A stretch of DNA of 64,000 nt from Sphingomonas quercus (lineage in GTDB: Bacteria; Pseudomonadota; Alphaproteobacteria; Sphingomonadales; Sphingomonadaceae), in contig NZ_JAHKRT010000002.1 in the NCBI RefSeq assembly GCF_018863195.1, forward strand, positions 496,001 to 560,000, given 5' to 3'. A program made the position numbers and the translations under genes. The notes under the pieces are model-generated. The model saw only the letters and a program-made list of their open reading frames with translations. It was not told the DNA's origin and made no database searches. This document shows positions 44,027-58,684 of the stretch, one piece after another (within the stretch, counting starts at the first letter, position 1; every line of letters begins with the position of its first letter).

Positions 44027-45085
44027 TCAACCCTGCCGCCGGGCCGGCAGCTCGTAGAAATCATAGACGATCTTCCATTCCATCGGCCGGCCGCGTTCGG
44101 CATGGACATGGATATAGGCCTCCGGACAGGTCGTTCGCGGCGATGTCCAGAAGACGAGGTCCGACAGCGGGCGATCGGCGGTGACGCGCACGCCGGCCCG
44201 CGTCTTCCGGTTCTCGACGCGGATGTCGTAATCCGAGGCCGACGGGCCGAAGCCCTTGAGCTGCATGCGCACCGGCGTGTCGATCGGCCGCAGATAGTTG
44301 AGCCGGTTCTCGGTCACCGCCACGGCATCGCCGCGCACGTTGAACGGCTCGAGCGTGAACGGGAAGCGTACCTCGATATCGGGTCCGCTCGGCTGGCCGT
44401 CCAGCACGAAGAAATTATGATCGTACATCTCGGTATCGATCGGATGGGCGCCGGTCGCCTCGATGCGCTGGGTGAGCGTCAGCTGCGGCTTGCCGGGGGT
44501 CAGCGCCACCGTCTTCGAATAGCGATAGCCATAGCCCGAGACCGGGTCCGACACCTCGTGGGTGAAGTCGATGGCGTTCGGCCGCACGCGCGTCGCCCAT
44601 TTGCCGCCGTCGATGATTTCCAGCGTCGGGAAGCCGCGGATCGGCTCGGCCGGCTTGCGCAGCACGCCGACGCCGATCTTGACGAACGGACCGCCGACCG
44701 CGGCCGCGTCGAAGCCCTGGCCGGTCACATACTCCTGCACCGGGCCCATGATGGCGTCGTGCGTCCTGGGATCATATTTGGCGAACCAGCGCCCGAAATA
44801 GGAATGGCCGCCGACCTGCAGATCGGCGATCGCGCCGGACCAGTCGAAACGAGTGGCGCGATAATAGCCGCGCGCGGCGTCGGGCATGAGCAGCACCGCG
44901 CTGGCGATGCCATTGCTGATGCGCACCGCCGGCGCATCCGGCGCGTCACGATCCGGGCTGGGCACGGGTTGCGCCAGCGCGGGCGCCGCGCCGAGGGCGA
45001 GGCCGGCGCCGATCGCCTGCAACACCCCGCGGCGCGTGCCCGCCAGTTCGCGGATCGCTCCGCTTCGATCCTCTACCTCGTGCAT
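44027..45085 (-). CDS. TAT-exported protein of galactose-mutarotase-like fold
   Basis: A 352-residue protein with a twin-arginine signal (TRRGVLQAIGAGLALGAAPALA). The mature part is beta-rich and resembles the mutarotase-like carbohydrate-binding superfamily (long beta-sandwich, TEMYDHNFFVLDG, EVRFPFTLEPFNVRGDAV, DIRVENRKTRAGVRV, then a C-terminal EAYIHVHAERGRPMEWKIVYDFYEL). I do not recognise a named family. Folding before export suggests a cofactor, a partner or fast folding. It is convergent with the PQQ dehydrogenase and lies 196 bases downstream of a cytochrome c gene on the same strand. ATG 45085 is used because the TAT motif then begins at residue 17. Confidence 0.7.
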   Translation of the reverse strand: MHEVEDRSGAIRELAGTRRGVLQAIGAGLALGAAPALAQPVPSPDRDAPDAPAVRISNGIASAVLLMPDAARGYYRATRFDWSGAIADLQVGGHSYFGRWFAKYDPRTHDAIMGPVQEYVTGQGFDAAAVGGPFVKIGVGVLRKPAEPIRGFPTLEIIDGGKWATRVRPNAIDFTHEVSDPVSGYGYRYSKTVALTPGKPQLTLTQRIEATGAHPIDTEMYDHNFFVLDGQPSGPDIEVRFPFTLEPFNVRGDAVAVTENRLNYLRPIDTPVRMQLKGFGPSASDYDIRVENRKTRAGVRVTADRPLSDLVFWTSPRTTCPEAYIHVHAERGRPMEWKIVYDFYELPARRQG

Positions 45086-45281
45086 CCTCTGCCGTCCTCG
45101 GCGTCGCGGTCGCCGGCCGTCCCGGCGGTCTACTCTCTCGCGCGCAATGGACAGGATGGCCGCATGACCAGCGACGTGGCAAGCACCAATGCATTCGTTT
45201 TCATGTGCCGTCTTCCGAGAGGGCTGCACGCCCGGCGAGCGACGGTATCGCCGCAGCCGGGGAAACGATTGCAGCCGAATT

Positions 45282-45590
45282 CTACTGGGGCTTGTCGGTC
45301 GAATAGGCACGGCCGAGATAGTCGAGCAGCACCTTGTAATCCTCGTCCGGGATGATCGCGCCATTGGCCTTCATCCGATCGAGGATCCCCGGCCATTCCG
45401 CATGCTTGCGCGGCTGGGAGGTGATCACGTCGAGATCGTGGCAATGGGTGCAGGTCTCCGTCATCAGCGCCTTGGCTGGCGCGTCGTCCGGCGCCGGCGC
45501 GGTCGAAGCTGCGGGCTGGGCCGACCCGGCCATGGCCAGCGACATGGCCAGAATGGCCGCGGCGCCGAGCAACGCTATCCTGCTGTTCAC
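45282..45590 (-). CDS. Small periplasmic cytochrome c
   Basis: A 102-residue monohaem cytochrome c. After a signal peptide (LLGAAAILAMSLAMAGSAQ) comes the haem motif CTHCH (about residues 47-51) followed by DLDVITSQPRKHAEW and a C-terminal helix with a candidate Met ligand in GILDRMKANGA. It is the most likely electron acceptor in this window for the PQQ dehydrogenase or for the GMC dehydrogenase. It is divergent from the glucuronoxylan operon across 194 bases. Confidence 0.88.
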   Translation of the reverse strand: MNSRIALLGAAAILAMSLAMAGSAQPAASTAPAPDDAPAKALMTETCTHCHDLDVITSQPRKHAEWPGILDRMKANGAIIPDEDYKVLLDYLGRAYSTDKPQ

Positions 45591-45738: not shown

Positions 45739-45750
45739 ATCATATATGAT
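45739..45750. promoter_or_regulatory. AT-rich palindrome upstream of glucuronoxylan operon
   Basis: ATCATATATGAT is a perfect 12-bp palindrome 34 bases before the esterase start, embedded in strongly AT-rich sequence in a GC-rich region. TATGAT inside it could also be a -10 box. A TTGACA at 45707-45712 is too far for standard pairing. Candidate operator of a uronate- or xylan-responsive regulator. Confidence 0.4.
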
Positions 45751-45784
45751 CAGCCGCGGACGGCGGGGCGTGGAGAGGATGCCG

Positions 45785-47218
45785 ATGCGGACGGCTCTGG
45801 GGTGGAGCGTGGCCCTCGCGGCGGGCATCATCGTCGGCAGCGCGCAGGGGCAGTCGCCCGGCACCAGCGTCGAGGCCTGTCCCGCCGCTCAGCCGGCCAA
45901 TCCGCTTGCAGCCGCGTCCGCCGCCGAGCGTACGCGCGAGATGCGGCTGCTGGGCATCGCCGCCATGCAGCCGCCGGTCGGCGCCTATGAGCCCGACAAG
46001 CCGTGCAACGCCAATTATGACGAGGCGCGCGCCAATCCCTATCCGAAGCTGCCGCCGCTGCTCGTCATGGCCGATGGGACCAGCGTGACGCGCGCGAGCT
46101 GGCCCCGGCGGCGCGCCGAGATCAAGGCGCTGTTCGACGATCAGGTCTATGGCCGCTACCCCGCCCATATCCCGGCGGTTAGCTGGCGCGTCGTCGGCAC
46201 CGAGCGCCGGACGGTCGCGGGAACGGACGCCGTGGTCCGGCATGTCGTCGGCCATGTCGACAATTCGGCCTATCCGGCGATCGCCGTCGACATCGAGCTC
46301 GACGTGGTCACCCCGGCGGCGGCGCAGGCGCGTCGCGTGCCGGTGATCATCGGCGGCGGATCGGTGCGGCCGCGGCCGAATTTCGTGCGGCCCGCGCCGG
46401 CCCCCGGCCAGATCGTGCGCGAACTCGCTGCGCCGGCGGATCCGCCGGACAGCGCGAAGCTCCTGCTCGAGAAAGGCTGGGGCTTCGTCTGGATCAACAC
46501 CAGCGACGTTCAGGCGGACAATGGCGCCGGGCTCGACAAGGGAATCATCGGCCTCGTCAACAAGGGCAGGCCGCGCGCGCTGAACGATTGGGGCGTGCTG
46601 CGGGCCTGGGCATGGGCGCAGGCCCGGGCGGTCGATTATCTGGTGACCGACGGCCATGTCGATCCGAAGAAGATCGGCGTGTTCGGCCATTCTCGCGGGG
46701 GCAAGGCGGCACTGGTCGCGATGGCTGACGATCCCCGTATCGCCATCGGCTTCATCAGCAGTTCTGGCGCGGGGGGCGCGACGCTTTACCGCCGCAATTA
46801 TGGCGAGACGGTCGCCAATCTCGCCGCAGCCAACGAATTCCACTGGTTTGCAGGAAATTTCCTCAAATATGCCGTGGTCGGCCACACGCGCGACGAGCTG
46901 CCGGTCGACAGCCATGAATTCATCGCCCTGCTGGCGCCGCGCCCGGTGTTCATCGGCGGCGGCGCGCTGCTCACCGACCCCCGCTTCATGCCCGGTGACG
47001 CCTGGCAGGATGCGCGGGGGATGTTCATGGCCGCCGCGGCCGCCAGCCCGGCCTGGGCGCTGCTCGGCCGCAAGGGCCTCGGCACCGACACGTTCCCGCC
47101 GATGAAGACGCTGGTGGACGATGGCGACATCGCCTTCCGCCAGCATGAATGGGGCCATACGCCGGCGCCGAACTGGCCGTCCTTTATTGCGTTCGCGGCG
47201 AGGTATTTCGACAGATGA
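45785..47218 (+). CDS. CE15-type 4-O-methyl-glucuronoyl methylesterase
   Basis: Exported serine esterase of 477 residues that should cleave ester links between glucuronoxylan 4-O-methylglucuronate and lignin or methanol. A signal peptide (ALGWSVALAAGIIVGSAQGQ) precedes an alpha/beta hydrolase with the bacterial CE15 nucleophile motif GHSRGGKAAL (S303), GFISSSGAGGATLYRRNYGE, an FHWFAGNFLKY segment, and the catalytic His in LPVDSHEFIALLAPRP (H377). ATG 45785 follows GGAGAGG by a normal distance; ATG 45779 is too close. First gene of the plus-strand operon, with its stop overlapping the next start (ATGA). A general acyl esterase is the alternative. Confidence 0.85.
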   Translation: MRTALGWSVALAAGIIVGSAQGQSPGTSVEACPAAQPANPLAAASAAERTREMRLLGIAAMQPPVGAYEPDKPCNANYDEARANPYPKLPPLLVMADGTSVTRASWPRRRAEIKALFDDQVYGRYPAHIPAVSWRVVGTERRTVAGTDAVVRHVVGHVDNSAYPAIAVDIELDVVTPAAAQARRVPVIIGGGSVRPRPNFVRPAPAPGQIVRELAAPADPPDSAKLLLEKGWGFVWINTSDVQADNGAGLDKGIIGLVNKGRPRALNDWGVLRAWAWAQARAVDYLVTDGHVDPKKIGVFGHSRGGKAALVAMADDPRIAIGFISSSGAGGATLYRRNYGETVANLAAANEFHWFAGNFLKYAVVGHTRDELPVDSHEFIALLAPRPVFIGGGALLTDPRFMPGDAWQDARGMFMAAAAASPAWALLGRKGLGTDTFPPMKTLVDDGDIAFRQHEWGHTPAPNWPSFIAFAARYFDR

Positions 47219-48141
47219 CGCGGCACGAGGACCATGGCGTCTCGCGCCGGGGCGTATTGGCGGGCGGGGCAACGGCCGGGTTCGTCGCCAGCGGCCGGGT
47301 CGCGCTTGCCGCGCCGCGGCTCACCGCGGGCGCGGTGGTGGAGCGGATGAAGCAGCATGTCGGCGGGCCGTGGCGGGAGGGCGGCGTCGACGGCTACAAG
47401 TCCGGCTCGGCGGAGACAGTGGTCACCGGCATCGCCACGACGATGATGGCGACCTTCGACGCGCTGAAGGCGGCGCGGCGCCACGGGCTGAACCTCGTCA
47501 TCACCCACGAATCCACCTACTGGTCGCACCAGGACAGGTTGACCGATCTTGAGGACGATCCGCTCTATCGCCGCAAGCGCGACTTTCTCGCCGCGCATGA
47601 CATGGTCGCCTATCATCTTCACGATCACTGGCATGCGCTGAAGCCGGTCGACGGGATCAATCTCGGCACGATGCAGCTCATGGGCTGGTCGCGCTATCGA
47701 CATGCCGATAACCAGCGCATGTTCACCATCCCGCCAACCACCCTGCTGGCGCTTGCCCAGGCATTCCAGCAACGGATGGGCACACGCACGTTGCGGATCG
47801 TCGGCGACCCCGCGCTGGTGGTGTCGACGGTTTATGAGAGCTGGGGCTTCTGCTCGGCCATTCCCGGGATCGACTTCCTCGAGAGCGAGGCGCAGGTGCT
47901 GGTGATCGGCGAGACCCAGGATTGGGACCTCATCGCCTATGCGCAGGACGCGGTCGCCTCCGGCCGCAAAAAGGCGCTGATCGTGCTCGGCCATGTGCTT
48001 TCGGAGCAATGGGGGATGAAGGCGTGCGCCGAGTGGCTGAAAGGCTTCGTTCCTGAAGTTCCGGTGCGATACCTGCCGATCGTCGAACCTTATTGGAACA
48101 TCGACCGGCCGGTGTTCGAGATCGACACGAGGCTTGCCTGA
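47215..48141 (+). CDS. NIF3-like dinuclear-metal protein, TAT-exported
   Basis: A 308-residue protein related to the NIF3/YbgI family, whose members hold two metal ions but have no settled reaction. A twin-arginine signal (VSRRGVLAGGATAGFVA) implies export of the folded metalloprotein, unlike ordinary cytoplasmic NIF3. Candidate ligands are H98 in NLVITHESTYW (normally a His pair), D137/H138 in HLHDHW and the H-x3-E pair H260/E264 in LGHVLSEQWGM. The ATG overlaps the esterase stop and the stop overlaps the next start, so it is cotranslated with its paralogue. In this operon a role on acidic xylo-oligosaccharides is likely but unproven. Confidence 0.78.
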   Translation: MTRHEDHGVSRRGVLAGGATAGFVASGRVALAAPRLTAGAVVERMKQHVGGPWREGGVDGYKSGSAETVVTGIATTMMATFDALKAARRHGLNLVITHESTYWSHQDRLTDLEDDPLYRRKRDFLAAHDMVAYHLHDHWHALKPVDGINLGTMQLMGWSRYRHADNQRMFTIPPTTLLALAQAFQQRMGTRTLRIVGDPALVVSTVYESWGFCSAIPGIDFLESEAQVLVIGETQDWDLIAYAQDAVASGRKKALIVLGHVLSEQWGMKACAEWLKGFVPEVPVRYLPIVEPYWNIDRPVFEIDTRLA

Positions 48142-48974
48142 TGCCTCAATCGCCGATCCGCGCCGCCGGTCCGCCGACCGCGCTCGAGATTGTCGACCGC
48201 ATCCTCGCCGACGGCGGCGTGGCGGCGCGGCCGCGGACGATCGACCGGATCGTCGCCGGCGATCCGACGACATTCGTCACCGGCGTGGCGACGATGGCCA
48301 TCGCCTCGCTGGACGGACTGCGCGCCGCGGCCGCGGCCGGGCGCAATCTGGTCGTTGCCTATGATGGCCCCTTCTGGTCCGAGACGGACGATCTGGAGCG
48401 GATGACCCGCTATCCAGGCTTTGCCGCGAAGCGGGATTTCCTGCGCGCCAAAGACATGGTGGTACTGCATCTGCGCGAGCATCTCCGCGATCGCGTGCCG
48501 GACGTCATCTCGCTCGGCATGGCCCGCACGCTCGGCTGGGAAGACCGGCGCGCCCCCGGCTGCGAGGCCGATCGCTTCGTGCTGCCGCCGACGACGCTGC
48601 TCGGTCTTGCCCGCGAGCTTGCCGGTCGGCTGGACGATCGAACGCTGCGCGTGGTCGGTGACCCGCAGCTCGCCGTCTCCCGTGTCGCGGCAAGCTGGGG
48701 CAACGCCGCGCAACTGCCGACGATCAGGCTGTTCAACAGCGAGGTCGATGTCGTGCTGTGCGGCTATACGCGCGAATGGGAAGCAGTCGAATATGCGCAG
48801 GACATGATCGCGACCGGACTGAAGAAGGGGCTGATCCTTCTCGGGCACGCGAAGTCGGTGGAGGGCGGGATGAGGGCATGCGCCGAGTGGCTGACAACGC
48901 TGGTGCCGGAAGTGCCGGTGGAGTTCCTCGCCCAGCCCGAACCTTATTGGACGCCGAAGCCATGGTCGCGCTGA
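48141..48974 (+). CDS. Degenerate NIF3-like paralogue
   Basis: A 277-residue paralogue of the preceding protein, alignable over nearly its full length (PPTTLLxLA, LRxVGDPxLxVS, RACAEW/KACAEW, VPEVPV, EPYW are shared). The first ligand His is Tyr (NLVVAYDGPFW, Y74), the HLHDHW segment is HLREHL, and the H-x3-E pair is changed to H-x3-V (LGHAKSVEGG; a Glu follows one residue later). So the dinuclear site is probably incomplete. There is no export signal, in contrast to its neighbour. It starts by TGATG overlap. It could be a partner subunit, a binding protein or a decaying copy. Confidence 0.72.
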   Translation: MPQSPIRAAGPPTALEIVDRILADGGVAARPRTIDRIVAGDPTTFVTGVATMAIASLDGLRAAAAAGRNLVVAYDGPFWSETDDLERMTRYPGFAAKRDFLRAKDMVVLHLREHLRDRVPDVISLGMARTLGWEDRRAPGCEADRFVLPPTTLLGLARELAGRLDDRTLRVVGDPQLAVSRVAASWGNAAQLPTIRLFNSEVDVVLCGYTREWEAVEYAQDMIATGLKKGLILLGHAKSVEGGMRACAEWLTTLVPEVPVEFLAQPEPYWTPKPWSR

Positions 48975-50302
48975 GCATGAGCCGCGCTGTTGCAGCGGTG
49001 CTTGCCGTGACGCTCGCCGTCGCGGCGTCGGCACAGACGCCGCCCGTCAGCTACAATCCCGCCGTCACCTTCGAGCCGTTTCACAGGAGCGGGGTCTATG
49101 CCGCCGGCGAAACGGTCGGCTGGACGTTGCGCGCGCCGCTCGGCCTTGGTCCGCAGCGCTTCCGCTATGTGATCCGCGAGAACAACATGGCCGTGCTCGA
49201 CACCGGCACCATCGACCTGAAGAGCGGCGTCGGCACCATCCGGAGCCGGCTTGATCACCCGGGAATGCTGTCGGTGCGCCTGACTCCGCTGGAGGGCGGC
49301 GAGCCGATCGATACGTCGCAGCTCACCGCGCAGGAGCGGGACCGGCTGACCGTCGCCGCCGCCGTCGCGCCGCTCTCGCTCAAACCCGGCGCTGCGCGAC
49401 CGGTCGATTTCGATGCGTTCTGGGCGGGCAAGCTGGCCGAACTCGGCCGCATCCCGATCAACCCGGTGCTGGAGCCCGCCGTCACCGCCGAGCCGGGAGT
49501 GGCGCTGTCGACGGTGACGCTCGACAGCGTCGGCGGCCATGTCCGCGGCTATCTCGCGGCACCGACCAAAGCGGGCAAATATCCGGCGCTGGTGATCTTC
49601 CAATATGCCGGCGTCTATCCGCTGGTGCCGGAAACGGCGACGGCGCGCGCCGCCGAAGGCTGGCTGACCTTCAACGTCGATTCGCACGACATGGCGCCGA
49701 CCGAGGCGACCGCCCCGCGCAATTACGCCCAGGTCGGCGCGGAGAGCCGCGAGACCTCCTACTTCCTGAACATGTACCTGCGCGACACGCGCGCGCTCGA
49801 TTATATCCGCAGCCGGCCCGACTGGGACGGGCGGACGATCGTGCTGATGGGCACCAGCATGGGCGGGCAGCAGAGCCTCGTCACCGCCGGGCTCAACCCC
49901 GATCGCGTGACGGCCGTGCTCGTCAACGTGCCGTCGGGGGCGCTTACCAACGGGGATCTGCACGGGGCGAAGGCGGGCTATCCCAACTGGGACGTCAGCA
50001 ATCCGGCGATCGCCCGCGCCGCGCTCTATTTCGACCCGGTTAATTTCGCGTCGAGGATTCGCGCGCCGGTGCTGGCCGGCGTCGGTTTTCTCGACGAAGT
50101 GTCGCCCCCGGTCGGCATCTTCACCGCGCTCGCCCAGATTCCCGGCGCCAAGGAGCCGGTGGCGATGATCGAGAGCGATCACAACCACATCACGCCGCAG
50201 AAGGAAGGCGATTATTACCGCCGCTCGCGCGAGGTGCTGGACGAGATCAGGCGCACCGGTCGCTTCGTCCCCCGACGGGACTGGACGGAGCCACAGCCAT
50301 GA
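48962..50302 (+). CDS. CE7-type acetylxylan esterase, exported
   Basis: Removes acetyl groups from xylan or xylo-oligosaccharides. The 446-residue protein has a signal peptide (AVAAVLAVTLAVAASAQ), an N-terminal beta-sandwich of about 100 residues, and an AXE1-type alpha/beta hydrolase domain with PVDFDAFWAGKL, the nucleophile GTSMGG (S299), the Asp of GFLDEVSPP (D378) and a C-terminal His (SDHNHITP). ATG 48962 overlaps the previous gene; ATG 48977 just after its stop is also possible. Its own stop overlaps the GH67 start (ATGA). It deacetylates substrate ahead of the glucuronidase. Confidence 0.88.
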   Translation: MVALSMSRAVAAVLAVTLAVAASAQTPPVSYNPAVTFEPFHRSGVYAAGETVGWTLRAPLGLGPQRFRYVIRENNMAVLDTGTIDLKSGVGTIRSRLDHPGMLSVRLTPLEGGEPIDTSQLTAQERDRLTVAAAVAPLSLKPGAARPVDFDAFWAGKLAELGRIPINPVLEPAVTAEPGVALSTVTLDSVGGHVRGYLAAPTKAGKYPALVIFQYAGVYPLVPETATARAAEGWLTFNVDSHDMAPTEATAPRNYAQVGAESRETSYFLNMYLRDTRALDYIRSRPDWDGRTIVLMGTSMGGQQSLVTAGLNPDRVTAVLVNVPSGALTNGDLHGAKAGYPNWDVSNPAIARAALYFDPVNFASRIRAPVLAGVGFLDEVSPPVGIFTALAQIPGAKEPVAMIESDHNHITPQKEGDYYRRSREVLDEIRRTGRFVPRRDWTEPQP

Positions 50303-52446
50303 GAATGCTGCGCAGCATGATCGCCGGGTTGCTCGCCGTGCTGATGCTTGCCGAGCCGGCCGCGGCGGATGACGGCTACGACCTCTGGCTGCGCTACACG
50401 CTTGCGCCCGCGCCGCAGCGGGCGGCGCTGCACGCGCGGGCGACCAGCATCGTCGCGCCCGGCCGGTCGCCGCTGCTCGCCTCCGCCGTCGGCGAGCTGC
50501 GCCGCGGCTTTGCGGGGATGACCGGCGTGGCACCGGTGATGGCGGACCGGCCGGCCGCCGGCGCGATCGTGCTTGCCGTCGCCGGATCGCGCTTGCTGGA
50601 TGGGCAGGCGCTGCCGCTAGAGGGCCTCGGGCGCGAAGGCTATGTGATCCGCAGCGCCACCATCGCCGGCGTGCCGGTCACCCTGATCGCAGCCAATGGC
50701 GAAGCGGGTCTGCTCTATGGCAGTTTCGCGCTGCTCCGCCGTGCGCAGATGGCGGACTGGCCGGCGCGGCTGGACGAGCGTTCCGCGCCCAAGGTGCAGC
50801 TGCGCGTGCTGAACCATTGGGACAATCTCGATCGTACGGTGGAGCGCGGCTATGCCGGTCAGTCGATCTGGGACTGGTGGTCGCTGCCGGACTGGAAGGG
50901 GCCGCGCTATACCGATTATGCGCGGGCCAATGCGTCGCTGGGCATCAATGGCGCCGTCCTCAACAACGTCAATGCCCGGCCGGAAAGCCTCACCGCGCCG
51001 TTCATCGCCAAGGCCGCCGCGCTGGCCGACGTGATGCGGCCATGGGGGATCAAGATCTATCTCTCGGCGCGCTTCTCGGCGCCGATCGAGATTGGCAAGC
51101 TGAACACCGCCGACCCGCTCGATCCCGCGGTGCAGGCGTGGTGGCGGGCCAAGGCCGACGAAATCTACAAGGCAATCCCCGATTTCGGCGGGTTCCTCGT
51201 CAAGGCCAATAGCGAGGGCCAGCCCGGTCCCCAGGATTATCACCGCACCCATGCCGACGGCGCCAATGTACTGGCGCAGGCGGTGCGGCGGCATGGCGGC
51301 ATCGTCATGTACCGCGCCTTCGTCTACTCGGAGGCGAACCCCGACGATCGCGCCAAGCAGGCCTATGCCGATTTCAAGCCGCTCGACGGCAGGTTCGACG
51401 ACAATGTCATCGTCCAGGTGAAGAACGGCGCGATTGATTTTCAGCCGCGCGAGCCGTTCCACCCGCTGTTCGGCGCGATGCCGCGCACGCCGCTGATGCT
51501 GGAATTCCAGATCACCAAGGAATATCTCGGCCAGAACTTCTCGCTAGCCTATCTCGGGCCATTGTTCGAGGAGGTGCTGCGCGCCGACACCATGGCCCAC
51601 GGGCGCGGCGACACGGTCAGCCGCGTGGTGCAGGGGAAGGTCGATCCCTATCGGATCACCGGCATCGCCGGTGTCGCCAATATCGGCGTCGACCGGGACT
51701 GGAGCGGCTCCACGTTCAACCAGGCCAACTGGTACGCATTCGGCCGCTTCGCGTGGGATCCCGACGCCTCATCGGCCGCGATCGCCCGCGAATGGGCGGC
51801 GATGACGTTCACGCCGGACCCGCGCTTCGTCACCCCGGCGGTGGCGATGATGCAGCGCTCGCGCGAGGCGGTGGTGGATTACATGACCCCTCTCGGCCTG
51901 CACCACCAGATGGCCACCGGCTATCATTACGGCCCGGCGCCGTGGGTGCATGCCCTGGCCCGGCCCGAATGGAACCCGGTCTATTACGCCAGGGCGGATG
52001 CGAGCGGCATCGGCTTCAATCGCACCGCCAGCGGCAGCAACGCGGTGGCCCAATATGCTCCGCCGGTCGCTGCCTTTTATGCCGATCCGAAGACGACGCC
52101 GGACGAGGAGCTGCTGTGGTTCCACCATCTGCCCTGGGATTACCGGATGCGCTCCGGCCGTATCCTGTGGGACGAGCTGGCGCTGCGCTATCAGCATGGC
52201 GTCGCTGAGGTCGCGGCGATGCGGCGGCAATGGGCGGCGCTGCGCCCCTATGTCGACGAGGAGCGCTTCGCCAAGACGGCCGCATTCCTGACCAGGGAGC
52301 AGCATGACGCGGAATGGTGGCGTGACGCCAGCCTCGCTTATTGGAGCAGCCTGTCCAGGCGCCCCCTGCCGGCCGGCGTGCCTGCGCCGGCCCACCCGCT
52401 CGAACATTATCAGTCGATCACGCTGCCGTTCGCCCCGGGCAATTGA
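50299..52446 (+). CDS. GH67 alpha-glucuronidase
   Basis: Releases (4-O-methyl)-glucuronate from the non-reducing end of xylo-oligosaccharides by inversion. The 715-residue protein has a signal peptide (MIAGLLAVLMLAEPAAA) and the complete GH67 signature set: LNHWDNLDRTVERGYAG, SLGINGAVLNNVNA, the acid Glu in LVKANSEGQPGPQDYHRTHA (E306) and the base pair in VQVKNGAIDFQPREP (D380, E385). Length is normal. It is the last gene of the operon. A dyad (CCCGGGC/GCCCGGG, 52434-52454) spans its stop codon and faces the opposing isomerase gene. Confidence 0.95.
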   Translation: MRMLRSMIAGLLAVLMLAEPAAADDGYDLWLRYTLAPAPQRAALHARATSIVAPGRSPLLASAVGELRRGFAGMTGVAPVMADRPAAGAIVLAVAGSRLLDGQALPLEGLGREGYVIRSATIAGVPVTLIAANGEAGLLYGSFALLRRAQMADWPARLDERSAPKVQLRVLNHWDNLDRTVERGYAGQSIWDWWSLPDWKGPRYTDYARANASLGINGAVLNNVNARPESLTAPFIAKAAALADVMRPWGIKIYLSARFSAPIEIGKLNTADPLDPAVQAWWRAKADEIYKAIPDFGGFLVKANSEGQPGPQDYHRTHADGANVLAQAVRRHGGIVMYRAFVYSEANPDDRAKQAYADFKPLDGRFDDNVIVQVKNGAIDFQPREPFHPLFGAMPRTPLMLEFQITKEYLGQNFSLAYLGPLFEEVLRADTMAHGRGDTVSRVVQGKVDPYRITGIAGVANIGVDRDWSGSTFNQANWYAFGRFAWDPDASSAAIAREWAAMTFTPDPRFVTPAVAMMQRSREAVVDYMTPLGLHHQMATGYHYGPAPWVHALARPEWNPVYYARADASGIGFNRTASGSNAVAQYAPPVAAFYADPKTTPDEELLWFHHLPWDYRMRSGRILWDELALRYQHGVAEVAAMRRQWAALRPYVDEERFAKTAAFLTREQHDAEWWRDASLAYWSSLSRRPLPAGVPAPAHPLEHYQSITLPFAPGN

Positions 52447-52456: not shown

Positions 52457-53509
52457 CTAGAGCCCGAGCATTCGCCGATTTGCCGCTTCGTCCGCGCCGC
52501 CAGCGGCGAAGTCGTCGAAGGCATGCTCGGTGACACGGATGATGTGATCGCGGATGAACGGGGCGCCCTCGCGCGCGCCATCCTCGGGATGCTTCAGCGC
52601 GCATTCCCATTCGAGCACCGCCCAACCGGGGAAATCATAGGCCGCCATCTTCGAGAAGATTGCCTTGAAGTCGACCTGCCCGTCGCCGAGCGAGCGGAAG
52701 CGGCCGGGCCGATCGACCCAGCTCTGATAGCCGCCATAGACGCCGCTCCGCCCATTTGGCCGGAACTCCGCGTCCTTGACGTGAAAGCACTTCACCCGCT
52801 CGTGGTAAATATCGAGAAAGGCGAGATAATCGAGCTGCTGAAGCACGAAATGGCTGGGATCGAACAGCATGTTGCAGCGCGGATGATCGTCGACCAGCGC
52901 GAGGAAACGCTCGAAGGTGGCGCCGTCGTGCAGATCCTCGCCCGGATGGATCTCGTAGGCGACATCAACGCCCTGCTCGTCAAATGCGTCGAGGATCGGG
53001 CGCCAGCGCCGTGCCAGCTCGGCAAAGGCCTCGTCGACCAGCCCGGCCGGCCGCTGTGGCCAGGGATAGAAATATGGCCAGGCGAGCGCGCCGGAAAAGG
53101 TGGCGTGCGCCATCAGGCCCAGGCGCCGGCTGGCGCGCGCGGCGTGGCGCATCTGCTGTACCGCCCAATGCTGCCGCGCCTCCGGATTGCCGCGTACCTC
53201 GGGCGCGGCGAAGCCGTCGAACGGCGCATCATAGGCCGGGTGCACGGCGACAAGCTGGCCCTGCAAATGGGTGGAAAGCTCGGTGAGGGCGAGGCCGCGC
53301 TCGCCGAGGATGCCGAGCACCTCGTCGCAATAATCCTGGCTCTCGGCGGCGCGCGCGAGATCGAACAGGCGTGCGTCCCAGCTCGGGATCTGCACGCCGC
53401 GATAACCCAGCCCCGCCGCCCAATCGGCGATCGCCGGCAGCGAATTGAACGGCGCGTCGTCGCCGGCGAACTGGGCGAGGAAGATCGCCGGGCCCTTGAT
53501 CGTCTTCAC
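52457..53509 (-). CDS. Sugar phosphate isomerase/epimerase-family TIM barrel, cytoplasmic
   Basis: A 350-residue metal-dependent TIM-barrel protein of the AP-endonuclease-2/xylose-isomerase-like family. Metal ligands are visible as Glu in AYEIHPGEDL, Asp in MLFDPSHFV, His in KCFHVKDAEF and Glu in VLEWECALKHP. No signal peptide. Family members act as sugar isomerases, inosose dehydratases, C-glycoside deglycosidases or 3-keto-sugar hydratases. It is the last gene of the minus-strand set and its ATG overlaps the Gfo/Idh stop, so a role in processing an oxidised sugar after uptake is likely. Confidence 0.88.
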   Translation of the reverse strand: MKTIKGPAIFLAQFAGDDAPFNSLPAIADWAAGLGYRGVQIPSWDARLFDLARAAESQDYCDEVLGILGERGLALTELSTHLQGQLVAVHPAYDAPFDGFAAPEVRGNPEARQHWAVQQMRHAARASRRLGLMAHATFSGALAWPYFYPWPQRPAGLVDEAFAELARRWRPILDAFDEQGVDVAYEIHPGEDLHDGATFERFLALVDDHPRCNMLFDPSHFVLQQLDYLAFLDIYHERVKCFHVKDAEFRPNGRSGVYGGYQSWVDRPGRFRSLGDGQVDFKAIFSKMAAYDFPGWAVLEWECALKHPEDGAREGAPFIRDHIIRVTEHAFDDFAAGGADEAANRRMLGL

Positions 53510-54654
53510 AGCGTCTCTCCGTCGAACGAGAGCCAGCGCCGCGTCTCGCTGGAGCGCACGGCAAGCTCGATGAACCGCATTGCCCGCAGGCCGTCGGTGA
53601 TGCCCGGAAGGCGGCCATCGAGGATACCGGGCACGCCGCCGATCGCGTCGGCGAAGTCGCGGTAGAGGGTGGCGAAGGCCTCGATCAGCCCCTCGGGATG
53701 CCCCGGCGGCAGCCGGGTGGCGGCGCGGGCTGCGTCGCTCAGGCCCGGCGCGCCGTCATGGAGAATGCGCAGCGAATTGTCTGCGTCGCGCAGGATCAGC
53801 CGATCGGGCACTTCCTGCGCCCATTCGAACCCGCCGCGTTCGCCATAAACGCGGACGCGGATGCCGTTGCGCTCACCGGCGGAGATTTGCGAGGCCATCA
53901 GCACGCCGGGCACGCCTCTGCCGAAGCGCAGCAGCACGTTGCAATCATCGTCGAGCCGCCGCCCCGGCACCACGCGCGAGAGCGCAGCGCAGAGCTCGGT
54001 GACGCGCAGCCCGCTGACATATTCGGCCATTTGCAGCGCATGCACGCCGATGTCGCCGATCGCACCGCCCGCGCCGGCGAGGGCCGGATCGGTGCGCCAG
54101 CCGGCCTGCGCGTTCGTCCCCTCGATCGGCTCGGACAGCCAGCCCTGCGGATATTCGGCGACGACCTTGCGCACCGGGCCGATCGCCCCGGCGGCGATCC
54201 GCGCCCGCGCCTCGCGGACCATCGCATAGCCGGTATAGGCATGGGTCAACGCGAACGGCACGCCGGTTTGGGCGACGACGGCGGCGACCGCCTCGGCCTC
54301 GGCAAGCGTGGCGGTCATCGGCTTGTCGCAGATCACGGCGATTCCCGCGCGCAGCGCCGCGATGGTGATCGCCGCGTGGCTGGCATTGGGGGTGGTAATC
54401 GCGATCGCCTCGATGCCGTCGTCGCGCGCCGCCTCGGCGGCGATCATCTCCTCGGCGCTGGCATAGAGGCGATCGGCGGCGATGCCCCATCTGGCGCCCT
54501 GTTCGCGGGATTTGCCGATCGACCGGCTGAGCGCGCCGGCGACGACAGCGAAGCGGTCGTCGAGCCGCGCCGCCATGCGGTGGACCGGGCCGATAAAGGC
54601 ACCTGGGCCGCCGCCGGCCATGCCCAGCCGCAAGGGTCGTTCCGCCATGTTCAA
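53506..54654 (-). CDS. Gfo/Idh/MocA-family oxidoreductase
   Basis: NAD(P)-dependent sugar oxidoreductase of 382 residues. The Rossmann loop is at the N-terminus (GMAGGGPGAFIGPVHRMA), and the family signature (usually EKP) reads VICDKPMTATLAEA, followed by the C-terminal beta-sheet domain (GDIGVHALQMAEYVSGLRV with the candidate catalytic His). No export signal, so cytoplasmic. GGGAGGTTG precedes the ATG. Beside a GMC dehydrogenase and two sugar isomerases, it probably reduces or oxidises a keto-sugar at C3 inside the cell. Confidence 0.9.
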   Translation of the reverse strand: MNMAERPLRLGMAGGGPGAFIGPVHRMAARLDDRFAVVAGALSRSIGKSREQGARWGIAADRLYASAEEMIAAEAARDDGIEAIAITTPNASHAAITIAALRAGIAVICDKPMTATLAEAEAVAAVVAQTGVPFALTHAYTGYAMVREARARIAAGAIGPVRKVVAEYPQGWLSEPIEGTNAQAGWRTDPALAGAGGAIGDIGVHALQMAEYVSGLRVTELCAALSRVVPGRRLDDDCNVLLRFGRGVPGVLMASQISAGERNGIRVRVYGERGGFEWAQEVPDRLILRDADNSLRILHDGAPGLSDAARAATRLPPGHPEGLIEAFATLYRDFADAIGGVPGILDGRLPGITDGLRAMRFIELAVRSSETRRWLSFDGETL

Positions 54655-54668
54655 CCTCCCTGGCCGGC

Positions 54669-56351
54669 TCAGATCGCGCCGGCCCTGAACTGCTTCACCG
54701 CGGTGTCCGCCGCACGCGACGTCAGCGCCATGAAAGTGAGCGACGGGTTGACGTTGGACACGGACTGCATCTGCGCGCCGTCGGTAACGAACAGATTGGC
54801 GGCATCATGCGCCTGGCTCCATTTGTTGAGCACCGAGTTGCGCGGATCATGGCCCATGCCGGCGCCACCCATCTCGTGGATGCAGTCGCCCGGCACATGC
54901 TCGCGCCGGCTGCTGGTGACGTTGGTGAGGCCGGCCCTGCGCAGCATCTCCATACCCTGCTCCTGCGCGTCGTCCATCATCCGGATCTCGTTGTCACGGA
55001 AGCGGACGTCGAAGCGCACCAGCGGAATGCCGTAGCGATCGAGCTTGTCGGGGGAAAGCGAGACGGTGTTGTCGTCATAAGGCAGGCATTCGCCAAACGC
55101 GCTCATCCCGAAGCGCCACGGACCATAGCGGCGCATTCCTTCCTTCATCGACGCGCCGAAGCCGACCGGCCTGGCCGGATCGCGCCGCGCCGCGCCCTGA
55201 AAGCCGTAGCCGCGCCTGAAGCCGAGGCCCTCGTCACCGTCGATATTGCGGAATCGCGGCACATAGACCCCGCCCGGCCGGCGGCCATATTCGATATATT
55301 CCTCCATGCCGGGGATATCGCCCGACACGCTGACGCGCAGAATGTGGTCCATCACCGCGCGTCCGAGCCTGCCGCTGCTGTCGAAATGGCTCCGGCCGCT
55401 GCCCGCAGGACGCGAGTTGAGCAGGATCTGGTTCGACGCCATGGCCGACGCGCAGAGGAAGACCAGCCGCGCCGGGATCACTTCCGCCAGCCCGGTTTTG
55501 GCATCGACGACCCGCACGCCGGTGACCCGCTTCGTCGCGCTGTCATATTCGAGATTGCTGACCACCGAATCCGGCCGCAACGTCAGCCGCCCGGTCGCCC
55601 GCGCCGCCGGCAGCGTCACCGCCTGGGTCGAGAAATAGGCGCCGAACTGGCAGCCGCGGCTGCACTGGTTACGCATCTGGCATTTGCTGCGGTTCTGCGC
55701 CGGCTTGTCCTCGGTCATGTTGCTGAGCCGGGTGTTGATCAGCTTGCGGCCGGGGAACTCTGCTTCCAGCCGCGCCTTCAGCCATTTCTCCGCGACGTTC
55801 ATCGGCATCGGCGGCTGGAATTCGCTGTCCGGCAGATAGGGCAGGTTTTCCCGCGAGCCCGAAACGCCGATATAATTCTCGACATAGCTGTACCAGGGCG
55901 CCAGATCCTCATAGCGGATCGGCCAGTCGATGCCGACGCCCTCGCGCTTGTTCGCTTCGAAATCCGCGGGGCTCCAGCGGAAGCACCAGCGACCCCAGAT
56001 CAGGGATTTGCCGCCCACCGCCGCCGGGCGGACCCAATAGAATTTGTTCGGCGCATCGTAATCATAGGGGTTGATCTTGTCGTTATTGTAGAAAGCGAGG
56101 TTGCTCGGCGACGGATAGCCGTTTCTGGCGATGAAATATTCATTCTCGACCAGCGCGCGCGGCATCGTGTCCCGCGCCGGGATCTCATAGGGGGGCTTGC
56201 CGTCATAGGTGTAGCCCTCGCCATGCTCGACCATGAAACCACGGTCGAGCATCAGCACGCGCAGGCCCTTTTCGGTCAGCTCCTTGGCGGCGAAGCCGCC
56301 GCTGACGCCGGAGCCGATGACGATCGCGTCGAAACGGTCGGTCGATGCCAT
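54669..56351 (-). CDS. GMC-type FAD sugar dehydrogenase, large subunit
   Basis: Flavoprotein of 560 residues in the glucose-methanol-choline family. The FAD site is VIGSGVSGGFAAKEL; the catalytic pair is H492 in DCIHEMGGAGMG and N535 in NVNPSLT. A Cys cluster C-x5-C-x3-C (C224, C230, C234) resembles the iron-sulfur motif of bacterial FAD glucose dehydrogenases and glucoside 3-dehydrogenases. It has no signal peptide, but its small subunit two genes upstream has a TAT signal, so hitchhiker export is expected. The proposed reaction is oxidation of a glycoside at C3, with electrons passed to a cytochrome c. Confidence 0.88.
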   Translation of the reverse strand: MASTDRFDAIVIGSGVSGGFAAKELTEKGLRVLMLDRGFMVEHGEGYTYDGKPPYEIPARDTMPRALVENEYFIARNGYPSPSNLAFYNNDKINPYDYDAPNKFYWVRPAAVGGKSLIWGRWCFRWSPADFEANKREGVGIDWPIRYEDLAPWYSYVENYIGVSGSRENLPYLPDSEFQPPMPMNVAEKWLKARLEAEFPGRKLINTRLSNMTEDKPAQNRSKCQMRNQCSRGCQFGAYFSTQAVTLPAARATGRLTLRPDSVVSNLEYDSATKRVTGVRVVDAKTGLAEVIPARLVFLCASAMASNQILLNSRPAGSGRSHFDSSGRLGRAVMDHILRVSVSGDIPGMEEYIEYGRRPGGVYVPRFRNIDGDEGLGFRRGYGFQGAARRDPARPVGFGASMKEGMRRYGPWRFGMSAFGECLPYDDNTVSLSPDKLDRYGIPLVRFDVRFRDNEIRMMDDAQEQGMEMLRRAGLTNVTSSRREHVPGDCIHEMGGAGMGHDPRNSVLNKWSQAHDAANLFVTDGAQMQSVSNVNPSLTFMALTSRAADTAVKQFRAGAI

Positions 56352-56361
56352 GTCCTGCCCC

Positions 56362-57213
56362 TCAGCCGCTCGCCAGCAGCGTGCGCAGGTTCCGGAAGCT
56401 GGTGGTAATGTCGGGGATGTAGGGCGCGGGCGCCTGATCATTCTCGACATAATAACGCTGCACGCCTGCCACGCTGTCCAGCTTGAAGATGCTGGCGAAA
56501 TCGATGGTGCCGGTGCCCACCGCGGCCATGCGGCCGTCCGGGGTCATGTCCTTGACGTGGTAGGAATAGATCTGCCCGCCGAGCGTCCTGATCATCGCCT
56601 TCGGATCCTGCCCGGCCTTGATCGCCCAGTAGAGGTCCAGCTCGAAGCGGACGAGCGCCGCGTCGCGATCCTTGACCAGCCGATCCCACAGCGAGACGCC
56701 GTCCGGCTTCACCAGGAATTCGAAATCATGATTATGATAGGCAAAGCCGATGCCGGCCTTTTTGAGCTTCTCCGCGAAGCGATTGAAATTGGCGACCGCC
56801 TCGGTCCAGGCGGGTGCGTTGCGGAACGGCTCGCCGAGATGCGGCAGCACCGCCGTCTCGGCGCCGAGTGTCCGGATCATCGCCAGCGCCTTGTCGAAAT
56901 CATTGAGCAGGAGGTCGTAGGCGACGTGGAGCGAAGGCGCGGTCAGCCCAAAGCGATCCATCGCCTTGCGCAGCATCGCCGGGTCCATCGCGTCAAAGCC
57001 GCCGCCCCCGAATTCGACCTGGGTGTAGCCGGCCTTGCGCACCTTTTCGAGCGTGCCCACCGGATCGCTCTGGAAGATCTGGCGTACGGTGTAGAGTTGC
57101 AGGCCGATGCGATCGACCTTCGCCGCCGATGCGCGGCCGACGAGCGGGCCGAGGCCGGCGAGGGACGCGAGGCCGAGGCTCGCGGACAGGAAAGTGCGGC
57201 GGGTCGCGATCAT
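56362..57213 (-). CDS. Sugar phosphate isomerase/epimerase-family protein, TAT-exported
   Basis: A 283-residue TIM-barrel protein with a twin-arginine signal (ATRRTFLSASLGLASLAGLG). Metal ligands appear as Glu in YHNHDFEFL, Asp in FELDLYW, His in YSYHVKDM and Glu in YYVENDQ, so the site is complete. Periplasmic members of this family beside DUF1080 proteins act on 3-keto sugars as hydratases or isomerases in other bacteria. Only distantly similar to the cytoplasmic family member at 52457-53509. The ATG overlaps the stop of the subunit 3 gene. Confidence 0.88.
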   Translation of the reverse strand: MIATRRTFLSASLGLASLAGLGPLVGRASAAKVDRIGLQLYTVRQIFQSDPVGTLEKVRKAGYTQVEFGGGGFDAMDPAMLRKAMDRFGLTAPSLHVAYDLLLNDFDKALAMIRTLGAETAVLPHLGEPFRNAPAWTEAVANFNRFAEKLKKAGIGFAYHNHDFEFLVKPDGVSLWDRLVKDRDAALVRFELDLYWAIKAGQDPKAMIRTLGGQIYSYHVKDMTPDGRMAAVGTGTIDFASIFKLDSVAGVQRYYVENDQAPAPYIPDITTSFRNLRTLLASG

Positions 57214-57776
57214 GCCGAAAACACCTTGTTGACGCTGGAATAGGGATAGGCGCCGTCATAGCGGCCCGGCACCGGCAGATATTCGCGTTCCTGCGTGATG
57301 CCGATCTCCGAGGTGAAATAGCCGGTGACCACCAGCTGGCGGAAATTCTCGAAGAAAGCGGCGCCGCCGGGCAGCGCGCCGTTCATCGCCAGCGTGAGCA
57401 GCGCGTCCTGCTGTTCGGGCGAGGCGCTGGCGGCGCCGGCGCGATAATCGCGCCGGCTGCGCGCCTCGATCGCGGCGAGCCCGTCGAGGATCGTCGCGCG
57501 ATCGTCGTCGACCGCCCAGTCGGACAGCATGTGCTCGATATAGTCGGGAACGCCGGCGGCGATCGCGCCGGGCGTGTCCGTGGTCGGCATCACCCGCTCG
57601 CAGAGCGCGGTGACCAGCGCGCGCTGGTCAGGCGTGAACACCGGCGGCGACACCGGGCCGGTGTTGATCGGCGTCCGCACGCCCGGCACGAAACCGGCCG
57701 CGCGCGCCAGCGGCGCGAACAGCTGCGACCCGAACAACGCCGCCATGGTGAGGAGCGCGCCGCGCCGGTCGATCAT
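57210..57776 (-). CDS. Gluconate 2-dehydrogenase subunit 3-family small subunit (TAT)
   Basis: A 188-residue small subunit for a GMC-type dehydrogenase. A twin-arginine signal (DRRGALLTMAALFGSQLFAP) is followed by the family core: FTPDQRALVTALCERVMPTTDTPGAIAAGVPDYIEHML and a C-terminal GYFTSEIGITQ and YDGAYPYSSV. In characterised glucose and glucoside 3-dehydrogenases this subunit chaperones and exports the FAD subunit. It is separated from the GMC gene by the isomerase gene but lies in the same overlapping run. GGAGAAAAG precedes the ATG. Confidence 0.9.
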   Translation of the reverse strand: MIDRRGALLTMAALFGSQLFAPLARAAGFVPGVRTPINTGPVSPPVFTPDQRALVTALCERVMPTTDTPGAIAAGVPDYIEHMLSDWAVDDDRATILDGLAAIEARSRRDYRAGAASASPEQQDALLTLAMNGALPGGAAFFENFRQLVVTGYFTSEIGITQEREYLPVPGRYDGAYPYSSVNKVFSA

Positions 57777-58615
57777 GGCTTTTCTCCAGTGAGATCCTGT
57801 TCGATCGCCGCCGCGGGCAGGGGCCGTACCCAGATGTTGCGGAACGACACCGGGGAATCATGATCCTGCAGCTGGATCGGCAGCGCGTCCTCGTGGGCGG
57901 TGTAGGTCGATACCTGCCGCCACGCCGTCGTGCCCAGCATCGCCTGATGGTTCTGCACCAGCACGCCGTTGAGGATGGCGGTGATGTAGGCAGGGCGTTT
58001 CAGCGAGCCGTCGGCGTTGAAGCGCGGCCGCTCGAAGACGACGTCATAGGTCTGCCATTCGCCCGGCTTGCGCGCGGCATTGGCGAGCGCCGGCTTCCAG
58101 CCATAGACGCTGCCGAGCGTGCCGTCGGCGTAGGTCGGGTTCTGATAGCCGTCCAGCACCTGCAGCTCGTAGCGTTGCATGAACTGGATGCCGCTGTTGC
58201 CGCGATTCTGCGAGCTGCGCTGCGGCGGGTATGGCGACCGGAACTCGAGATGCAGCTGCACGTCGCCGAAGGCCTGCACCGTGGCGAGGTCGTTGCCGCC
58301 CTTGCCACCGTCGCGCGGCGGGACGGTGAGCGCGCCGTTGGCGACCAGCCAGGGCTTGCCGAGGGGCTTCCACTTGTCGGCGGATCGTCCGTCGAACAGG
58401 ACGATCGCGTCGGAGGGCGGCGAGGCAGCGGTGGCGCCGGGCGTCACCACGGCCGGCGCGGGGCGGGCGGGATCGTGGACGTGCCACTTGCCACCCGGCT
58501 GCATCGGCGTGTCGGTGAAGCCGAGATCGTGATTGCCTGTGGGCGGTGGCGGCGCCTGGGCGATCGCGGTGCCCGTCAGCAGCGCCACTGAGACCCACTT
58601 CCAGCCCGGCCGCAT
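57773..58615 (-). CDS. DUF1080 (3-keto-glycoside hydrolase/lyase family) exported protein
   Basis: A 280-residue secreted protein with a Sec signal (WVSVALLTGTAIAQA) and a concanavalin-like DUF1080 domain (VLFDGRSADKWKPLG at the start, then WLVANGALTVPP, FGDVQLHLEFRSPY, NSGIQFMQRYELQVLDGY, LNGVLVQNHQ and LQDHDSPVSFRNIWVRPL). Family members cleave 3-keto glycosides such as 3-keto-trehalose. GAGGAGCGAGG precedes ATG 58615. It opens the six-gene 3-keto module, which has its own candidate promoter region behind a hairpin. Confidence 0.9.
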   Translation of the reverse strand: MRPGWKWVSVALLTGTAIAQAPPPPTGNHDLGFTDTPMQPGGKWHVHDPARPAPAVVTPGATAASPPSDAIVLFDGRSADKWKPLGKPWLVANGALTVPPRDGGKGGNDLATVQAFGDVQLHLEFRSPYPPQRSSQNRGNSGIQFMQRYELQVLDGYQNPTYADGTLGSVYGWKPALANAARKPGEWQTYDVVFERPRFNADGSLKRPAYITAILNGVLVQNHQAMLGTTAWRQVSTYTAHEDALPIQLQDHDSPVSFRNIWVRPLPAAAIEQDLTGEKP

Positions 58616-58684
58616 GCCTCGCTCCTCTTGCTCGTCGCTGGTCAATCGCGGGCATGAGGCCGTTGCCGTTGCGGCACGCCATCG

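Follow-up and report, generated by a model that had tools for sequence, protein, structure and literature searches.

Tandem XynX-type NIF3 proteins, one with a Tat-type signal and one lacking most of the putative metal-site residues, in a glucuronoxylan operon of Sphingomonas quercus

The genes considered here lie in a 64,000-nucleotide stretch of Sphingomonas quercus DNA (assembly GCF_018863195.1, contig NZ_JAHKRT010000002.1, positions 496,001 to 560,000), referred to as the window and numbered from its first letter. Five genes on the forward strand form an operon, encoding in order a CE15-type glucuronoyl esterase (45779..47218; Pfam PF22244), two NIF3-like proteins, NIF3a (47215..48141; 308 amino acids) and NIF3b (48141..48974; 277 amino acids), a CE7/AXE1-type acetyl xylan esterase (48962..50302; PF05448) and a GH67 alpha-glucuronidase (50299..52446; PF07488, PF07477 and PF03648). 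All four junctions overlap: CE15 stops at 47218 and NIF3a begins with the ATG at 47215; the NIF3a stop and the NIF3b ATG share position 48141; NIF3b stops at 48974, past the CE7 ATG at 48962; and CE7 stops at 50302, past the GH67 ATG at 50299. An alternative CE7 ATG at 48977 would leave no overlap with NIF3b. A preliminary description of this DNA had placed two NIF3-like genes between these neighbours, joined by start/stop sharing. Both open reading frames are present, both products exceed the cut-off of the NIF3 family model, and the Pfam matches agree with the neighbours named, as do the overlaps, the alternative CE7 start excepted. NIF3a and NIF3b are the sole NIF3 matches found in the source genome (99.93% complete).

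Read by eye, the N-termini of the CE15, CE7 and GH67 proteins are Sec-like, and NIF3a begins with MTRHEDHGVSRRGVLAGG, which contains RRGVLA and fits the twin-arginine translocation (Tat) pattern. NIF3b is the only operon product without a signal, and starting translation as far 5' as the frame allows, at 48093, reveals none. The twin-arginine signal of NIF3a and the lack of a signal in NIF3b had been anticipated in the preliminary description.

Both proteins passed the cut-off of PF01784 (DUF34_NIF3; 23.4 bits), with scores of 41.2 for NIF3a and 31.4 for NIF3b. Neither approached the TIGR00486 equivalog cut-off of 130.55 bits (25.1 and 18.9, respectively), and against NF008064 (PRK10799, GTP cyclohydrolase I type 2; cut-off 414 bits) NIF3a scored 19.8 and NIF3b was not listed. 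The equivalog cut-offs rule out identity with the canonical YbgI/GTP cyclohydrolase group. AlphaFold models of the two proteins have mean pLDDT (predicted local distance difference test) values of 89.0 and 88.9, and their best structural match is XynX (PDB 9g9u), with template modelling scores, by target length, of 0.92 for NIF3a and 0.89 for NIF3b. For each model, the 20 PDB chains matched at an expectation value (E) ≤0.001 are NIF3-family structures (XynX, SA1388, YbgI, HcgD/MJ0927, B. cereus NIF3-related, TTHA1606 and Sphaerobacter NIF3), apart from 2fyw of S. pneumoniae, titled as of unknown function. Judged from these models, both proteins have the NIF3 fold, as had been supposed.

XynX is also the nearest solved sequence to both proteins. 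In Geobacillus it is a NIF3 protein encoded in a xylan cluster (PMC8469502, PMC4593210), in agreement with the title of PDB 9g9u, and that cluster also holds the alpha-glucuronidase gene aguA and axe2 (PMC4593210). Because both models match XynX best, an association of NIF3 with xylan genes has precedent and is not, as had been suggested, undescribed; what is new at this locus is the predicted export and the pairing. Our literature search found no mention of PDB entry 9G9U and no paper joining NIF3 with xylan and glucuronidase, which does not settle priority. XynX and NIF3a carry the same eight site residues in alignment. The two systems differ in that the published Geobacillus cluster table lists a single xynX (PMC4593210), whereas the window has a pair; the PDB chain of XynX aligns from residue 3 and its construct has no signal, whereas NIF3a bears a Tat-type signal and comes with a partner lacking the site; and XynX is described as a regulator of expression.

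The eight putative metal-site residues are H98, E99, H136, D137, H140, E233, H260 and E264, and NIF3a has all of them, including the four named previously as candidate ligands (H98, D137, H260 and E264). The preliminary description had raised a mixed oligomer that completes a metal site; this is unnecessary, as NIF3a alone holds the complete set. NIF3a shares its fold with YbgI, SA1388 and YqfO (TIGR00486, annotated 'GTP cyclohydrolase I type 2'), and most site positions align. In the alignment of NIF3a with E. coli YbgI (E = 0.003), based on sequence only, the canonical dual histidine is HE in NIF3a and HH in YbgI, and HDxxH of NIF3a pairs with HxxxD. This pattern suggests a swapped ligand set relative to YbgI.

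To place NIF3a among its relatives, we scanned 84,980 species' genomes, which yielded at least 545 relatives, and kept the 80 most similar to NIF3a (79 loci). These loci span several phyla, being mostly from Acidobacteriota but also from Bacteroidota, Alphaproteobacteria and a few other groups. The eight site residues are invariant in 81/81 site-intact proteins, the window's included. An export-type N-terminus was scored in 77 of the 81 (36 Tat-like, 41 Sec-like, 4 unclear) by a simple motif and hydrophobicity rule rather than SignalP, and some N-termini may be overextended. Among the four unscored proteins (L017, L026, L061 and L048), three have a visible RR motif and one is truncated. By this rule, the view that NIF3 proteins are solitary and cytoplasmic does not hold for the XynX-type branch. 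A plasmid-borne relative from Spirosoma also shows the Tat pattern; those from Paenibacillus, Deinococcus (two), Lactiplantibacillus and Haloprofundus, read as annotated, have no obvious signal. In Paenibacillus (L007), GH67 and NIF3 both lack a signal, and the Gram-negative GH67 proteins checked mostly have one. Close to home the branch is sparse: matches were found in 1/149 genomes of the family and 1/10 of the genus, in each case the window's own, and in 4/398 genomes of a phylum sample, three of them weak at 29–30% identity. A profile of the second copy, built with the L012 row starting 19 codons late, matched 1/396 genomes of the order.

The residues of NIF3b at the eight site positions are Y D R E R Y H V, giving H98Y, E99D, H136R, D137E, H140R, E233Y and E264V, with only the H260 equivalent identical (1/8). 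The Tyr for H98 and Val for E264 had been noticed before; five further site positions differ. On these grounds NIF3b appears to be a NIF3-fold protein but not a metal-site-bearing member. Such a site-less second copy lies directly 3' of the first at six loci, all alphaproteobacterial: the window, L012 (Sphingobium ummariense), L013, L014, L015 and L020. Spacing between the copies, with starts as called, runs from a 52-base overlap to a 9-base gap, and by the simple rule the second copy has no signal in 6/6 pairs. Every second copy carries H98Y, E233Y and E264V and has lost H140; H260 and E99 are each kept in one. Among the 258 columns compared, no position but these three fixed ones switches from a conserved residue (≥90% of 26 site-intact rows of the 81) to one other residue in all six second copies. 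In the tree, first and second copies separate into two groups of six, each supported at 100/100, and the unrooted branching within the two agrees in three splits: L014 with L015, the window with L012, and these two with L020 (88/47, weak, among first copies). The trees of first and second copies match, and the pair is of single origin. A seventh tandem, in Acidobacteria (L024:9635-11695), has both sites intact and groups as a separate duplication. Comparison of the window with L012 gave ratios of nonsynonymous to synonymous substitution rates (Ka/Ks) of 0.160 (NIF3a) and 0.187 (NIF3b), close to the 0.15 of CE15 and the 0.16 of CE7. Purifying selection and the fixed replacements rule out a decaying pseudogene. 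Because Ka/Ks is low and the replacements are fixed in 6/6, NIF3b is a maintained, remodelled protein whose site loss has been kept by selection.

One way to account for a maintained second copy is a division of labour, with NIF3a as an exported enzyme and NIF3b as a cytoplasmic regulator or sensor of the operon, as proposed for XynX. The missing signal of NIF3b-type copies in 6/6 pairs, under the same simple rule, is in keeping with this idea, and a cleft with two fixed tyrosines could bind a ligand. XynX is reported to reduce the expression of xynA in Geobacillus; one source classes it among the negative regulators of that gene (PMC8469502), and another has it act by binding the xynA promoter (PMC8670212). 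However, the full site is intact in XynX and lost in NIF3b, Pfam finds no DNA-binding domain over cut-off beside NIF3, and 6/6 second copies adjoin an exported-type first copy, an arrangement needless for a separate regulator. We consider such a split unlikely. For NIF3a itself, the Tat-type signal speaks against a cytoplasmic regulator of xylanase expression. For the branch as a whole, DNA binding is an unlikely shared role because a periplasmic protein cannot bind a promoter.

We then compared the gene content of pair-bearing genomes with that of other genomes. GH67 is present in 6/6 pair-bearing genomes versus 38/296 of the order and 4/190 of the class, and CE15 in 5/6 versus 10/296 and 8/190 (over cut-off; 11/190 of the class at E ≤0.001). 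The window's genome is among those counted for the order and the class, and the class genome G985 is apparently L014; both were excluded from exact tests against the order, which gave 6e-6 for GH67 and 6e-7 for CE15, values that are too optimistic because the six pairs share ancestry. Twelve genomes were surveyed in all, three of them (L016, L039 and L090) picked for CE15 adjacency, and the comparison was restricted to the six with pairs.

Gene neighbourhoods gave a more mixed picture. With the window protein as phmmer query, CE15 was found within 2 kb in 6/79 loci; a seventh, at L055, is weak by profile (E 1.4e-9) and is probably the fifth Pfam CE15 match among near genes. CE15 density is 0.020 per kb within 2 kb and falls to 0.003 and 0.002 per kb in the outer bins. 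For loci L012–L064, we scanned 99 of 145 near genes and 93 of 145 far genes that had been sampled from 207, and CE15 was the commonest family among the near genes (5) and occurred at most once among the far. In the near set a CE7 gene was entered as the L012 downstream gene, raising the AXE1 count by one; the distance-binned counts omit it. In the tree, loci with an adjacent CE15 fall on separate branches, namely L016, L039, L090 and the alphaproteobacterial set. Relatives of other window genes also lie within 2 kb, namely GMC oxidoreductase (3/79), TIM-barrel (3/79) and pyrroloquinoline quinone (PQQ)-type dehydrogenase (4/79), with none at 5–10 kb. GH67 was found near NIF3 in the window, in Paenibacillus and, at 5–10 kb, in L036, the sole flank case in 79 loci; a general GH67 linkage was not found among these loci. 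Thus the CE15 linkage is real but not general. The tabulation of neighbours proposed in the preliminary description puts homologues mostly in mixed surroundings, with CE15 as the commonest neighbour family; the association with glucuronoxylan genes stands, but 'locked into' GH67 operons was too strong, because in the DNA examined GH67 adjoins NIF3 only in the window and, one gene away, in Paenibacillus.

The PQQ-type dehydrogenases, which need a metal, bear on a further possibility, namely that NIF3a is a metal chaperone or insertase supplying periplasmic enzymes and that NIF3b modulates it. Their presence near four loci fits, but the operon partners, esterases of CE15 and CE7 type and a GH67 glycosidase, work without metal, so that a delivery role has no evident client. 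The invariance of the eight-residue site in all 81 proteins, moreover, looks catalytic rather than transient. We hold this role to be improbable here, although it has been proposed for the DUF34 family by Reed et al. 2021 (PMC8469502).

The reading we favour, plausible but short of probable, has NIF3a as a dinuclear-metal enzyme, exported to the periplasm by Tat, whose targets are uronic or oxidised xylan fragments, and NIF3b as its retained non-catalytic partner. Its computed support consists of the fold, the family, the signal pattern, the invariant versus lost site, the single origin, purifying selection and the co-occurrence with GH67 and CE15; actual export, metal binding, the substrate, the reaction, the hetero-oligomer and hitchhiking are what we infer. 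A uronic- or oxidised-sugar metalloenzyme fits NIF3a best. CE15, CE7 and GH67 would strip glucuronoxylan and release a small uronic or oxidised sugar, which NIF3a would most likely hydrolyse or rearrange in the periplasm. NIF3b may have arisen by duplication in the same lineage and then lost its metal ligands and signal. The likeliest arrangement would be a mixed NIF3 ring that forms in the cytoplasm and leaves whole by way of the Tat signal of NIF3a; within it NIF3b would shape the ring or bind substrate in the cleft with the two fixed tyrosines. A co-exported structural partner is the simplest account of NIF3b because its signal is missing, the copies are adjacent in 6/6 and its site is dead. 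Such hitchhiking has been described for PaoABC and the flavin adenine dinucleotide glucose dehydrogenase, where a signal-less partner is exported with a Tat-bearing one; those complexes are redox enzymes, whereas the proposed passenger here is a paralogue of the signal bearer and its co-export is predicted only. A broader proposal, possible but doubtful, is that the exported XynX-type NIF3 proteins together make up a class of dinuclear-metal enzymes that work in the periplasm on uronic or oxidised fragments of plant sugars, with a dedicated dead paralogue in Alphaproteobacteria that joins the enzyme in a mixed ring and leaves by its Tat signal. We know of no defined NIF3 reaction in carbohydrate breakdown and no NIF3 hetero-oligomer in print. 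The family occurs across superkingdoms (PMC8469502), and its reaction is disputed between GTP cyclohydrolase, metal insertase and regulator (PMC8469502, PMC8670212). If the branch is exported, most cytoplasmic explanations (DNA binding, GTP use) fall, and NIF3 is tied to defined substrates. The dead paralogue offers a built-in control that retains the fold, has lost the site in nature and is maintained by selection, and the pair narrows the old question of NIF3 function to a compartment and a range of substrates that can be tested.

Several observations weigh against the periplasmic enzyme and its partner. Site loss is not uniform, as H136 is kept in 4/6 and D137 in 5/6 second copies. In more distant pairs, where Ks is near saturation, Ka/Ks rises to 0.18–0.51 for NIF3a and 0.30–0.41 for NIF3b. 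The common ancestry of the six pairs means that the co-occurrence counts are not independent. CE15 is absent within 2 kb from 72 or 73 of 79 relatives (2 kb on both sides being present in 60/79), the pairs L015 and L020 have no adjoining CE15, the L015 genome has no CE15 at all, and GH67 is missing from the flanks of every fetched pair locus but the window's. The neighbours of most relatives are diverse and mixed. This last point, together with the spread of relatives over several phyla, would suit passenger genes, with NIF3a having a general periplasmic role and placed here by chance rearrangement, and NIF3b a slowly decaying duplicate. We regard this too as rather unlikely: NIF3b is under purifying selection with replacements fixed in 6/6, CE15 adjacency recurs on separate branches, and GH67 and CE15 co-occur with the pair.

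Upstream of the operon, a perfect palindrome, ATCATATATGAT (45739..45750), is separated by 28 bases from the CE15 start adopted here and was considered as a candidate operator. As a shared operator it was rejected: an exact copy occurs in 1/92 loci, L001, which is the window's own, with none in L012, and matches with up to two mismatches are not above chance frequency. A phage origin was also rejected, with no PHROGs match. Divergent from the CE15 operon, 45282-45590 on the reverse strand encodes a 102-residue protein, probably a small cytochrome c, with the haem motif CTHCH and an N-terminus that looks like a signal. The reverse-strand frame at 44027-45364 has no Pfam match at E ≤1; it contains a Tat-like stretch, TRRGVLQAIG, behind a probably overextended N-terminus. 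Convergent with the operon, 52457-58645 on the reverse strand encodes two xylose-isomerase-like TIM barrels, a Gfo/Idh/MocA oxidoreductase, a GMC oxidoreductase and a 3-keto-disaccharide hydrolase domain, a set that we take to resemble the 3-keto-glycoside pathway. Some genes similar to this set are found near other exported-type NIF3 loci.

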